DNA of 24,444 bases from a virus. This document shows positions 15,534 to 19,802 of this stretch, piece by piece (the stretch's first letter is position 1; each line of letters begins with the position of its first letter). Position numbers and translations under genes: made by a program. The stretch spans positions 1 through 24,444 of the IMG/VR virus record IMGVR_UViG_3300009068_000184. The stretch is one strand, 5' to 3'. The notes beneath the pieces are model-generated. The model was not told the origin of the DNA, ran no database searches, and worked only from the letters and a program-made list of their open reading frames with translations.

Positions 15534-15926
15534 TTATCGTGTTCTCTCTAACGCTAAATCGAGAGTAATTGGTCTCTCGGTGTTGACTATTGTGAATTCT
15601 AAAGTTACATAAACTTCATTTGCATCGGAATAATCGTCCACTCTAACATCAATGATATTAACTCTAGGTTCAAAGTTATTAATAACATCGATGATCGCTC
15701 TTTTGAGCATAACATTAAACATTGGACCAGGATTATCAAATAACAACTGTCTAATCGGAGATCCAATTTCACTGTGGAATGGTCTCTCATAATTTCGGGT
15801 CAATAACAAATTCTTTACGGATTGCTTAATAGCATCCTCATCATGTCTGCGAGTTATATCCCCAGTCACTGGATGCGCAGTGAAGTTGAGGTCTAAATCA
15901 GAGAAAATTCTTGTATTTCTTGCCAT
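15534..15926 (-). CDS. gp25: Baseplate wedge protein gp25
   Basis: This is a 130-residue protein; T4 gp25 has 132. Family signatures are FSDLDLNFTAHPVTGDITRR at 8-27, RNYERPFHSEIGSPIRQLLF at 44-63, and the EPR motif at 86-88 within NNFEPRVNIIDVRV. gp25 is the small conserved wedge protein, related to type VI secretion TssE, that ties the gp6 ring to the first sheath layer. It lies between PAAR and gp6. No Shine-Dalgarno site is visible before the ATG at 15926; instead the late-promoter-like CCTAAATA ends 6 bases upstream. That could mean initiation without a normal ribosome site, or coupling to the PAAR gene, which ends 14 bases upstream. Confidence 0.95.
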   Translation of the reverse strand: MARNTRIFSDLDLNFTAHPVTGDITRRHDEDAIKQSVKNLLLTRNYERPFHSEIGSPIRQLLFDNPGPMFNVMLKRAIIDVINNFEPRVNIIDVRVDDYSDANEVYVTLEFTIVNTERPITLDLALERTR

Positions 15927-15940: not shown

Positions 15941-16243
15941 TTATTCTATAAAAGTGTTGGAAGAACCTTGCGCAATTGCATCTCCGTCTCCAATACTGTC
16001 TCCGATTCGAACTGCTAAGTTACCCTCAATATAAGTCTTTCCAGCAGAACTAGATGGTATTCTACTGCTCTGTGGATGAACAGTTGTACCACAACTATGA
16101 GTGGCAAACTGGCAATCTCCGCTCTTTGAACCAGCTAATTTACCGTTAAAATATGTCTTAGTCACACCTGTAGTCACCATTGGAGTTGGTGGAAAACATC
16201 CATGTCCTGTGCTGTTATCTCCGATTGTTGATACAGCAGGCAT
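15941..16243 (-). CDS. gp5.4: PAAR-repeat spike tip protein (gp5.4-like)
   Basis: This is a 100-residue protein; T4 gp5.4 has 97. It starts MPAVSTIGDNSTGHGCFPPT and holds PAAR-type features: GHGCFPP at 13-19, then THSCGTTVHP at 48-57, and a second half with IRIGD-like spacing (LAVRIGDSIGDGDAIAQGSS). H14, H49, C51 and H56 are candidate ligands for the metal ion that PAAR proteins bind in their conical tip. These proteins cap the beta-helix needle of gp5 or VgrG and form the sharp point that pierces the outer membrane. It sits one gene downstream of gp5, and its start overlaps the stop of the 154-residue gene (TAATG). The family call is firm; the exact metal ligands are inferred. Confidence 0.9.
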   Translation of the reverse strand: MPAVSTIGDNSTGHGCFPPTPMVTTGVTKTYFNGKLAGSKSGDCQFATHSCGTTVHPQSSRIPSSSAGKTYIEGNLAVRIGDSIGDGDAIAQGSSNTFIE

Positions 16244-16707
16244 TATCGTCCAATCCTAGTCTGAGCAATAGCAGTTAACAAAGCAGTTTTACCCGCATCC
16301 CAGTTAAATGTAGAAACAACGGTATAAGTCTGTTGAACATCTGGACCAATAAAATTTTTATCCTTAGCTGTTACAGTATAACTATAAGTTACAGTTTGAA
16401 TAGTCGGTGCAGTAAAAGAACAAATTTCATATGAATTTGTTATATCATTAAAATTATTAACAGTATTATATGTTTTATCTTTAGTCAAATATGTAATACT
16501 ACTATTGCCATGATATGTTGCATCATATTGACCAGAAATATTATTGGTACCAACAGTCATCATAGGGTTTGGTTTATCTGTAACTATTCCTGTGACTTCA
16601 TAGTTTGTTGATGCTGCACCAGTATAAGAAAATGTTTGTGAGTAGCTGGTATAAACAGGCAACTGATCCACTGTCGTCAAAGCAGTATTGGAAGGAGTCC
16701 AAGGCAT
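16243..16707 (-). CDS. Protein of unknown function between gp5 and PAAR
   Basis: I do not recognise this 154-residue protein. It is rich in Thr, Ser, Tyr and Asn, with alternating hydrophobic patterns that predict mostly beta strands (QTFSYTGAASTNYEVTGIVT, IQTVTYSYTVTAKD, QQTYTVVSTFNW) and a short C-terminal helix (AGKTALLTAIAQTRIGR). This resembles a small beta-sandwich. There is no signal peptide, membrane segment or catalytic motif. It is coupled at both ends (TAATG) to gp5 and PAAR, the two halves of the cell-puncturing spike, so a role in the spike or in loading its tip is plausible. This is inference from position only. Confidence 0.8.
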   Translation of the reverse strand: MPWTPSNTALTTVDQLPVYTSYSQTFSYTGAASTNYEVTGIVTDKPNPMMTVGTNNISGQYDATYHGNSSITYLTKDKTYNTVNNFNDITNSYEICSFTAPTIQTVTYSYTVTAKDKNFIGPDVQQTYTVVSTFNWDAGKTALLTAIAQTRIGR

Positions 16708-19700
16708 TATGCTGCTTTCGGAGGAATGCTATCTAACAAAACAAATCCAGAGGGAATACGCTTTGAATCCCGTTTATAAACTTTATCATTCACCATCGTA
16801 AACGCTTGTTTTCTTGCACCCTTAGACTTAAATGATACATGGATCCAAACTGATTGAGGGAAACGATATTCAAGAATCAACTGATCATAAGGAAGGATCT
16901 TTTCTAACTGTTGAATGATCTCATATGTTTTTGTATTTTTGTCTGGCAGCATAATACCAATATCAAATGCTTGCCCCTTACAGTGGTCTGATGTTGGTGA
17001 CTCGTTTGCAACTATACCCTTTAAACGATAACCTGAATTAATCTTCCACTGTTTCTTATATCCTCCAATACCACCTGGAAGAACTCCCATCGCTGGTTCA
17101 AGAATATTCTGACAAGTCTGCGCAAGATTACATACAATCTCGGGAGCAGTGTATAATCTTTCTGGTGCGTCTTTACTATCCTTAAGCATCTGATCAACGA
17201 GTTTATGTTCACCACCAACACCTCCATCCATTAACATACCAAGAGTGAAGTTTTGGGACATTCTAAAATCATTTGTAAATTGTCTTGTTGCGTAAATAAT
17301 CTCACAACTTACTGGAATAGTAGTATTAGAACCACCTGATGGTTTTCCTGCTTCTTCTGACGCTACTGGTGCAGGTGCTCCAACTACACCTTCTTTTCTA
17401 GTAGTCTCAGCAGATGCCGCACGACCTTCTGGTGTGTCAAAGTCATCTGGAGTTTCAGCAACAGTCTTTTCTTCAAACTGTCTTTCTGGAGGAATTGAAT
17501 ATGGCACAACTGGAGATAGTGGATTACCTAAATCTGGAGGAGTCAATTCTACATCAGGAGCAACAATAGTTTCGCTACCAGCTGCACCATTACCAAATTG
17601 ACCTTGAGAGTAATCTGCAGATAATGTTCCACCAGCAAGGATATCCATACTACCACTCGACTCAAGATTAACTGTGGCACCGAGTAGGTTAAATCCTTCA
17701 TCAGCAGCAACTGAAACTGCAGATCCATTCACTGCATAATTAGTATCAGCTTTCTGATTAATATTTGCAGCTTGGATATCAATATCACCAACTGCTTTAA
17801 TAAGAATGTCTCCACCTGCAGCCATGTAGATATCATTGGCAACACCAATGTCTAGATTTTGCCCAACTTTAAGTGTAGCATTTTGCTCAACTTGAATGTT
17901 CGCATCAGTACGAGCATAAATGTTTGCATTACCATTCACAGTAATGTTTAATTCACCAGCTACGGATAGACAACCATTCTTTTCCATGACAACAAAGTTA
18001 TCACCGATGATGTAGTTAACCTGTGTTCCGTTTGGATCGATCTCGCTAAATGTTCCAGATCTATGGTAAGTGTTTATTCTTTCATACCCTGGAGTATCAT
18101 CAAATTCTTGTAGGTGACCAGATTCTGTTTCAAGAACTTTGTTAAATGGATACTTTGCTCCATATGGTGCTTCTGGTTGATCCCATGATCCGTTATCAAG
18201 TGCTTTAGGAACACCCAGCTTTCGGATAGCATCTTTCTTCTTAATAACTGTACCTTCAATAACACCACGTGCAAGACGATTAGTGTCTGGCTCACCGATA
18301 TACTCTTTTAGAGGATACTTGTTGTTTGGGTCTCGGAAACCAGTAGTACCAGAACCAGTTTTTACAGATTCTGGTGATGGTTGTGGAGTTGTTACATTGC
18401 CTACTGGTGGTGTATCTGGAATTGGTGGGTTGGCATCTTTCTCTGGAGCACCAACATCTGGTGATTGCCCATAGAAATATTCATAGTATGCTTTCTTTTT
18501 TGCAGCGATATCAGCTGAGTTTACACCAACTGCTTGTTTTGCTGCAAGGAAATATCCAGGATGATCATTTACATTAACACCCTTTGGCACTCTGTCTTTA
18601 ATGTACAATGCAGCAACTAATGCTGACACATTAATATCAGCATCAAGTGAATCTGGATTGTTAACAATATCCAGAGTCAAACCCATCTGATTGGCAAGTT
18701 TCTGGTATCTTGCATAGTTTGATTTACCAGTTAACTGAATAAATCCACGACCATAATACTTTCCACCATCTTCATCTGTTTGATTACCAAGAAATCCTTT
18801 TCCTCTTTTTGTTGGACCATATGCCCATGAGAAGAATTCTTCTCTACTTAAACCTCGTTTTCTAGCATTAGAATATTTGGCAATGTCTTCTGGAGTAGCA
18901 AACGAGTAAATAGTTTTAAGACGTCCTTCATTATAATTATACTCTTCTGATGTTGGAACCCACGTACTTTCACCACCAGCAATACCCAACAAAGCACATT
19001 TCTGTTCTTTAGTAGTCAATCCAACTTTATCACATGCAGCAATAAGTGCTTTAATACCTTCTGATGCCTTGTTTGGGTTACTAGAAGACTTTGGTGGTGG
19101 GATAGTTGGTATTGATGAATTAGATGCTGTTGATTTTATTTTATCTGCAGTCGATCCTGTTACCACTGCAGTTCCATCGCTAGTGACAAGATTAGTGACT
19201 TTACTTTCAGCAACAGCTTCAAGATTTGATGGTGCTGCTTGAAACTTTATAATATTTTCTTGATAATTTATAACAGTATTACTAATTGTAATTTTAGTAC
19301 CACTATCAACAGAAACAATAAATGTTCCTGCTGGAAGTCCAAAGCCTAACACTCTCATGTTTGCTTTTAAATCTTTGGTTAGATTAGTAGCACCAGTTTC
19401 TTTATCATAAAATGTTAATTGTGTGCCATTTGTTGGACCAGGAATAGTTCTTAATTCCAAATTTTCAATTTTACCGCCAGAAGCAATTGGTGCATCATCT
19501 TCTTTATCAATGGGTGCTGGCGCAGAAGGAATACCACCAACAGTACCAATCATAATTGGTTGTTGATTATCAGTATCCGCAAAAATAATAATTACACAAG
19601 TACCCTCAACTGGACCAATAGGAGAGAATCCAATACCATTCATTGCAGCAGATGTAACTGACTGCATTGGATGCGCCCATGGTAATTCTGAAGTAGGAAG

Positions 19701-19802
19701 CTGTGATTTGTCGTGTGTATGCAATCCAACTACTCGGACTTGACAACGACCAAGTTTTAATGGATCACTTCTATTTTCTACGACACCATAGTAAAAATTC
19801 AT
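16707..19802 (-). CDS. gp5: Baseplate hub spike gp5 with GH19-type and M15-type domains
   Basis: This is a 1031-residue protein; T4 gp5 has 575. Residues 1-95 are the OB-fold (YYGVVENRSDPLKLGRCQVR, GCxP-like hub core, IMIGTVGGIP). A Pro-rich linker at 228-245 leads to a GH19-type domain at about 245-446: ALLGIAGGESTW with candidate catalytic E278, E286/E287, and KYYGRGFIQLTGKSNYARY at 348-366. A second Pro-rich linker runs about 452-480. Residues 590-735 are the beta-helix needle (short repeats such as VNGNANIYARTDANIQVEQN). After a linker at 745-830, residues 838-1003 match the peptidase M15_3 pattern: KINSGYRLKG, SDH-x-x-G-x-A-x-D (H940, D947), DQLILEY and WIHVS (H988). It would pierce the outer membrane and cut peptidoglycan. 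It is coupled to the gp27-like gene upstream. Confidence 0.9.
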   Translation of the reverse strand: MNFYYGVVENRSDPLKLGRCQVRVVGLHTHDKSQLPTSELPWAHPMQSVTSAAMNGIGFSPIGPVEGTCVIIIFADTDNQQPIMIGTVGGIPSAPAPIDKEDDAPIASGGKIENLELRTIPGPTNGTQLTFYDKETGATNLTKDLKANMRVLGFGLPAGTFIVSVDSGTKITISNTVINYQENIIKFQAAPSNLEAVAESKVTNLVTSDGTAVVTGSTADKIKSTASNSSIPTIPPPKSSSNPNKASEGIKALIAACDKVGLTTKEQKCALLGIAGGESTWVPTSEEYNYNEGRLKTIYSFATPEDIAKYSNARKRGLSREEFFSWAYGPTKRGKGFLGNQTDEDGGKYYGRGFIQLTGKSNYARYQKLANQMGLTLDIVNNPDSLDADINVSALVAALYIKDRVPKGVNVNDHPGYFLAAKQAVGVNSADIAAKKKAYYEYFYGQSPDVGAPEKDANPPIPDTPPVGNVTTPQPSPESVKTGSGTTGFRDPNNKYPLKEYIGEPDTNRLARGVIEGTVIKKKDAIRKLGVPKALDNGSWDQPEAPYGAKYPFNKVLETESGHLQEFDDTPGYERINTYHRSGTFSEIDPNGTQVNYIIGDNFVVMEKNGCLSVAGELNITVNGNANIYARTDANIQVEQNATLKVGQNLDIGVANDIYMAAGGDILIKAVGDIDIQAANINQKADTNYAVNGSAVSVAADEGFNLLGATVNLESSGSMDILAGGTLSADYSQGQFGNGAAGSETIVAPDVELTPPDLGNPLSPVVPYSIPPERQFEEKTVAETPDDFDTPEGRAASAETTRKEGVVGAPAPVASEEAGKPSGGSNTTIPVSCEIIYATRQFTNDFRMSQNFTLGMLMDGGVGGEHKLVDQMLKDSKDAPERLYTAPEIVCNLAQTCQNILEPAMGVLPGGIGGYKKQWKINSGYRLKGIVANESPTSDHCKGQAFDIGIMLPDKNTKTYEIIQQLEKILPYDQLILEYRFPQSVWIHVSFKSKGARKQAFTMVNDKVYKRDSKRIPSGFVLLDSIPPKAA

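Follow-up and report, generated by a model that had tools for sequence, protein, structure and literature searches.

A T4-type spike needle is capped by a PAAR protein, and the spike protein described here continues past its needle into a further domain of the M15 metallopeptidase type, with a PAAR gene close by. How can such a domain and a cap share one needle end? We addressed this question in a 24.4-kb virus record of 24,444 nucleotides (hereafter the window; the remainder of the phage lies outside it) and in related loci, designated by L numbers. The genes of interest lie in the order gp5, a gene for a 154-aa protein, PAAR, gp25, and gp6, and every feature given coordinates in the window below is on the minus strand.

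The baseplate hub/spike protein gp5 (16707..19802, 1031 aa) starts directly with an OB domain at about residues 1-93 (19524..19802), supported by PF06714 (Gp5_OB) at 5e-24 and by profile. The tail-lysozyme slot, about residues 264-424 (18531..19013), holds a GH19-like domain of the chitinase/endolysin type, with GRGFIQLTGKSNY at residue 351; it matches phrog_181 at 3.1e-26 and PF00182 at 2.8e-5, just short of the cut-off of the latter. A triple beta-helix needle follows at about residues 487-737 (17592..18344), ending ..DYSQGQFGNG, as judged by phrog_430 (1.5e-89), our own profile (which spans 487-726), and a junction alignment. Downstream, the 100-aa PAAR protein of the 'STGHGCFPPT' type (15941..16243) bears out an earlier call: it matches phrog_281 at 1.9e-16, the family that also contains T4 gp5.4 (2.9e-37), and PF05488 weakly (0.018). 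The baseplate wedge gene gp25 (15534..15926; PF04965, 4.2e-13) served as the downstream landmark for counts. OB domain and needle within a T4-type baseplate gene cluster identify the protein as a T4-type gp5, and the order of OB domain, wall-cutting slot, needle, gp5.1, and PAAR genes is that of the T4 gp5-gp5.4 spike. However, T4 gp5 (575 aa) has the T4 lysozyme in its slot and ends at the needle with nothing beyond, whereas the window gp5 carries the M15 domain there.

The first-pass annotation had placed an M15-type domain beyond the needle, and our analyses confirm it. The span marked then, 16794-17570 (residues 745-1003), does cover linker and M15 sequence; the domain itself runs further, from about residue 825 to the C-terminus at 1031 (16707..17330). 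It matches phrog_894 at 1.1e-10. The single-sequence Pfam match is weak (PF08291, E 0.056, 14.0 bits) and does not reach the curated cut-off of 23.2, which is a convenience criterion and not a property of the enzyme class. The active-site residues H, D, E, and H are kept in all 119 aligned homologues. In the window, the metal ligands correspond to H940, D947, and H988, and E978 aligns with the hedgehog Glu, whose role as catalytic acid we take to apply here. One pair of search patterns contained the first H, D, and E, so that the loci it yielded (the best 80 of 461) can be checked without bias for the second His alone. That His and the M15 loci that came from different patterns provide the cleaner test.

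A predicted model of the domain (mean pLDDT 86) is nearest to the Zn DD-peptidase 1lbu (Z 10.8, rmsd 2.9, 130 aligned), with a Z well above those of other structures and the hedgehog proteins next. Foldseek of the model gave no match below 1e-3, the best again being 1lbu at 4.5e-3, and a sequence search of the M15 segment alone against the PDB returned no matches. By motif and predicted fold, the domain is a divergent M15 relative; with its intact active-site residues and DD-peptidase-like predicted fold, it is real and looks active. It resembles the M15A Zn DD-carboxypeptidase of Streptomyces albus G (1lbu) and the hedgehog fold in predicted structure and in the H-D-E-H metal-site pattern. 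Unlike 1lbu, to which it is ~15% identical, it is tethered to a spike. Homologues of the catalytic domain make up the single-domain M15 endolysins encoded by phages and prophages (phrog_894; proteins of pelagiphages and Bacteroides phages), which presumably act as free lysis enzymes outside the baseplate, whereas here the domain is spike-borne.

The linker between needle and M15 domain had been described as ~90 residues rich in Pro, Glu, and Thr. The composition stands: these residues make up 38%, and equal richness is found in 6 of 6598 86-residue stretches elsewhere in window ORFs of at least 86 aa. The floppy part is shorter, nearer 55-60 residues; block pLDDT is 50-68 only at about residues 733-792, begins to climb at 793, and is above 90 from 813 onward, and composition and confidence together place the low-confidence part at about residues 738-790 (17433..17591). 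Within the linker we found a conserved element, PPERQFEEKTVAETPDDFDTPEGRAASAE.., at about residues 771-804 (17391..17492), with the core PPxR...E...(F/A)ETP(D/E)(D/E); the window copy ends in a predicted helix (791-804). In a split-half profile test, held-out linkers were found in 16/31 and 18/31 cases, and 5/6246 other ORFs matched in each half, all of them M15-bearing: ORFs cut off and open at the 5' end and, among the five of one half, the M15 gene that stands alone in L085, a borderline match (0.045). This test weakens the idea that the linker is a mere floppy spacer. The needle-linker piece alone retrieved one weak record (E 0.8) from the phage collection. As far as sequence comparison can tell, the element goes with M15 and not with the needle or PAAR in the loci examined, so it would either belong to the M15 fold or serve for docking; its apparent specificity for M15-bearing proteins is a new observation. 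The variant PPxR..E..FETPDE is present at window positions 17391-17492 and in the linkers of L026, L028, L029, L031, L032, L035, and others.

Fusions of needle and M15 recur. The loci fetched contain at least 140, or 62 once duplicates, defined by M15 segments 85% similar, are removed. Some contigs are represented by several overlapping loci (e.g., L008/L092, L088/L139), and only the de-duplicated figures count these singly. Given this recurrence, we rejected a domain order arising by chance. At several loci two genes take the place of gp5, one for the OB part and one for needle plus M15 (L002:3962-7005, L037, L044, L048, L064, L117, L119, L120, L123, and L124), and M15 sits on the needle gene, not on the OB gene (e.g., L002, L037, L044, L048, L064, and L117). 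The splits in L002 and L064 fall in the same inter-domain region as the T4-type maturation cleavage, which is no proof of cleavage. Melnitz (L002) also has a second, VanY-like M15 match in its lysozyme slot (1.1e-4, below cut-off).

To count PAAR genes, we used the non-redundant loci that have gp5-M15 and, downstream of it, gp25 (58 in all), leaving out the others and merging duplicates only within the same PAAR/gp5.1 state. Because PF05488 missed the PAAR of the window itself, absence was judged by our own PAAR profile for these loci and by profile A2 for the genomes and longer records below. A PAAR gene lies between gp5-M15 and gp25 at 42 of the 58 loci. None was recognized there at the other 16, eight of which have no more than 27 nt between the genes. 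By profile, no PAAR was found in pf16, a complete genome, or in two records of 167-168 kb; in BUCT-ZZ01 a PAAR is encoded elsewhere in the genome, away from gp5-M15. Thus, PAAR usually, not always, accompanies the extended needle. In L010 (about 2798-2887), gp5.1 is present with no intact PAAR ORF before gp25, and the profile finds a short remnant with an internal stop.

The anchor of the M15 domain varies among phages. In 12 loci (L003, L006, L052, L129-L136, and L138) it is joined to the C-terminal end of PAAR, as in Vibrio phage 1.244.A and the Pseudomonas phages Milchi, Paride, and Peetri. At the eight of these 12 loci with a gp5 visible to profiles, gp5 ends at the needle and the lysozyme slot is empty, so that M15 is the sole wall-cutting domain seen on the spike. 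M15 is a separate gene in L085, between gp5 and gp5.1, and in L137, ahead of gp25. The slot is also empty in 5/42 non-redundant single-gene gp5-M15 proteins (incomplete ORFs were left out of this count and of the needle-end count below), and with an empty slot M15 may be the only wall-cutting enzyme of the tail. The Pseudomonas phage pf16 likewise has an empty slot. Other configurations were seen as well: in L075 (5188-6354, 388 aa) and L087 (3250-4569, 439 aa), upstream of gp25, M15 is preceded by an N-terminal part of another kind, and in L081 (5524-6558) it lies behind a diverged PAAR-like N-terminal part, recognized by eye and unscored by profile.

The payload varies too. At seven loci with the same gp5.1-PAAR-gp25 order, a CHAP/TIGR02594-type domain follows the needle, a call that was profile-tested in L175 and L171 only: PF05257 matches L175 at 1.7e-8, above its cut-off, and TIGR02594 matches the two at 7e-11 and 4.5e-12, below its cut-off. 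L175 is 70% identical to L164 in gp5.1, 68% in PAAR, and 72% in gp25. L174 and L193 are 84% identical in the OB domain and 49% in the needle, with no match in their C-terminal parts. A GH24 domain follows the needle in L085 (8.5e-37) and L137 (1.7e-10). The post-needle position is thus exchangeable, with CHAP or GH24 in place of M15. Most gp5s that stop at the needle have a terminal strand of the type ..GSRIDIG (T4) or ..GSRIDLN, and a related last-strand motif was found at the needle end of 13/42 extended gp5s, compared to 2.5 expected from shuffles. This partial motif supports, short of proof, the addition of the payload after an ordinary last needle strand.

A similar arrangement is described for type VI secretion. 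Passages on P. aeruginosa VgrG2b report a C-terminal metallopeptidase and a requirement of PAAR3 for VgrG2b secretion (PMC7376260), and homologues of this peptidase are described as attached to PAAR as well, or as made in the form of cargo proteins (PMC6899460). In a further account, PAAR is bound by the final strands of VgrG, beyond which payloads are added (PMC7043769). As described there, VgrG2b with PAAR3 likewise has a needle and then a zinc-peptidase payload, with PAAR needed. There, however, the peptidase is of the HEXXH kind, its linker contains a TTR domain, and an immunity protein goes with it. The window gp5, by contrast, carries an M15 (H-D-E-H) payload, is encoded in the baseplate operon of a phage, and has no gp27 part. 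The window gp5 has in common with T6SS evolved VgrGs an effector domain after the needle and a PAAR partner nearby (15941-16243 in the window). Since gp27 and gp5 are not one protein here, gp5 would work like an evolved VgrG without being a member of that class. An immunity gene beside the effector is not expected in a phage. The three-way choice of anchor in phages is the T6SS pattern with a different peptidase.

These comparisons bear on the tip-placement problem that the first-pass annotation had raised. Its anatomy was right. The problem itself largely dissolves, because the same M15 domain follows the needle in many phages and PAAR is mostly kept; VgrG2b with PAAR3, and the varying M15 anchor among phages, likewise leave no real paradox. 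Among the options listed then, the domain hanging beside the tip is the best supported. We favor, with a probability of roughly 0.7, the reading that gp5 amounts to an 'evolved spike' of a phage, in which an otherwise normal spike of the T4 type bears an M15 payload after the needle and is capped by PAAR, with M15 beside the cap. In T4, gp5C and gp5.4 were measured at 3:1, one PAAR per three needle chains (PMC7600766). Correspondingly, the needle here would consist of three gp5 chains, with one PAAR capping it directly, as in T4. From the last needle strand of each chain a partly flexible tether would lead to an M15 domain, and these three domains would hang beside the cap in the virion. Once the needle has crossed the outer membrane, M15 would reach the peptidoglycan and, as an active zinc peptidase, would cut peptide stems or cross-links, with the GH19-like domain cutting glycan strands. 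The variation among relatives suggests that the extra M15 domain is a swappable payload rather than a rebuilt tip.

The best surviving alternative, which we consider unlikely, is that the linker is cut during assembly and M15 is released as a free or lysis enzyme, so that mature spikes lack it. T4 gp5 is itself cut between its lysozyme and needle parts, and the P/E/T-rich, low-confidence stretch of the linker would fit such a release. Free-standing M15 ORFs of ~150 aa with no other domain also occur in viral contigs, L085 has M15 as a separate gene, and a search of bacterial genomes (best 80 of 91 loci) gave at least 79 M15 ORFs with a median of 150 aa, none fused by profile to OB, needle, PAAR, gp5.1, or gp25. 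However, M15 is anchored in many phages by two types of fusion, to needle and to PAAR, which would be unneeded if it were always released; moreover, the linker is 78-91% conserved among non-identical near relatives and holds the conserved element. Less probable still is a tip built differently, in which no PAAR caps the needle and M15, or a trimer of M15, forms the tip itself. The 16 loci with no PAAR recognized before gp25, and the complete pf16 genome, would fit such a tip, but PAAR is kept beside gp5 at the other 42 and in this phage, and the linker is long and variable (54-217 aa among relatives, duplicates at 85% removed), unlike a rigid tip.

The 154-aa protein encoded between gp5 and PAAR (16243..16707) had been proposed as an adaptor. 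It matches genes 5.1 of T4-like phages and belongs to phrog_1168 (1.4e-8), the family of T4 gp5.1 (5.5e-67); alignment of profiles with T4 gp5.1 gave a probability of 90.7 (E 1.3e-6). This profile match and its place between gp5 and PAAR assign it to the gp5.1 family. It is predicted to form an Ig-like beta-sandwich with a C-terminal helix, and comparison of the model returned common Ig/cadherin-like sandwiches only (best Z 8.2, many tied rows); the best match of the gp5.1 profile to the PDB had an E of 0.3. T4, JSE, and VH7D have the order gp5, gp5.1, PAAR with no M15 on gp5, and near relatives with a gp5 ~80-90% identical have no gp5.1 and a different PAAR type. Between eight gp5 sequences from loci with gp5.1 and nine from loci without it, there were no fixed differences in 1042 columns. 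Loci with and without gp5.1 numbered 19 and 2 for 'STGH' PAARs and 1 and 20 for other PAARs (p 1.7e-8, with loci taken as independent, PAAR types drawn up once the sequences had been inspected, and gp5.1-bearing loci over-represented through two of the searches). Because gp5.1 tracks the PAAR type and is absent behind near-identical gp5s, it belongs with PAAR and not with M15; it may serve PAAR itself, for example as a chaperone. An adaptor joining gp5-M15 to PAAR, suggested by the position of the gene and its association with one PAAR type, is therefore very improbable and was rejected on synteny, on family, and on the near-identical loci that lack gp5.1. The alternation, behind similar gp5s, of gp5.1 plus 'STGH' PAAR (L091, L095, L096, L009, and L097) with another PAAR alone (L088-L090, L093, and L094) marks a candidate recombination cassette.

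What chiefly remains of interest is the exchangeable spike-tip payload in T4-like phages together with the conserved linker element, which stays with M15 even in its separate gene in L085 (by the borderline match). A literature search of partial coverage recognized no phage spike in which a peptidase comes after the needle or is joined to PAAR. Tentatively, and with distinctly less than even confidence, one may picture the distal spike end of T4-like phages as a general bay for payloads, where M15, CHAP, or GH24 would be exchanged on gp5, carried on PAAR, or re-docked separately. The linker element would then be a docking signal, the payload would replace the tail lysozyme where the slot is empty, and PAAR-less phages would have a differently built tip. 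Genes for testing the evolved-spike reading can be named in the culturable phages Cr30, pf16, Melnitz, Milchi, and PA5oct-like phages. If that reading is true, such phages would offer natural, comparable cases of a PAAR cap and a payload accommodated at the same needle tip, and phages would deliver spike-tip enzymes by the same routes as T6SS effectors: fused to the spike, fused to PAAR, or separate.
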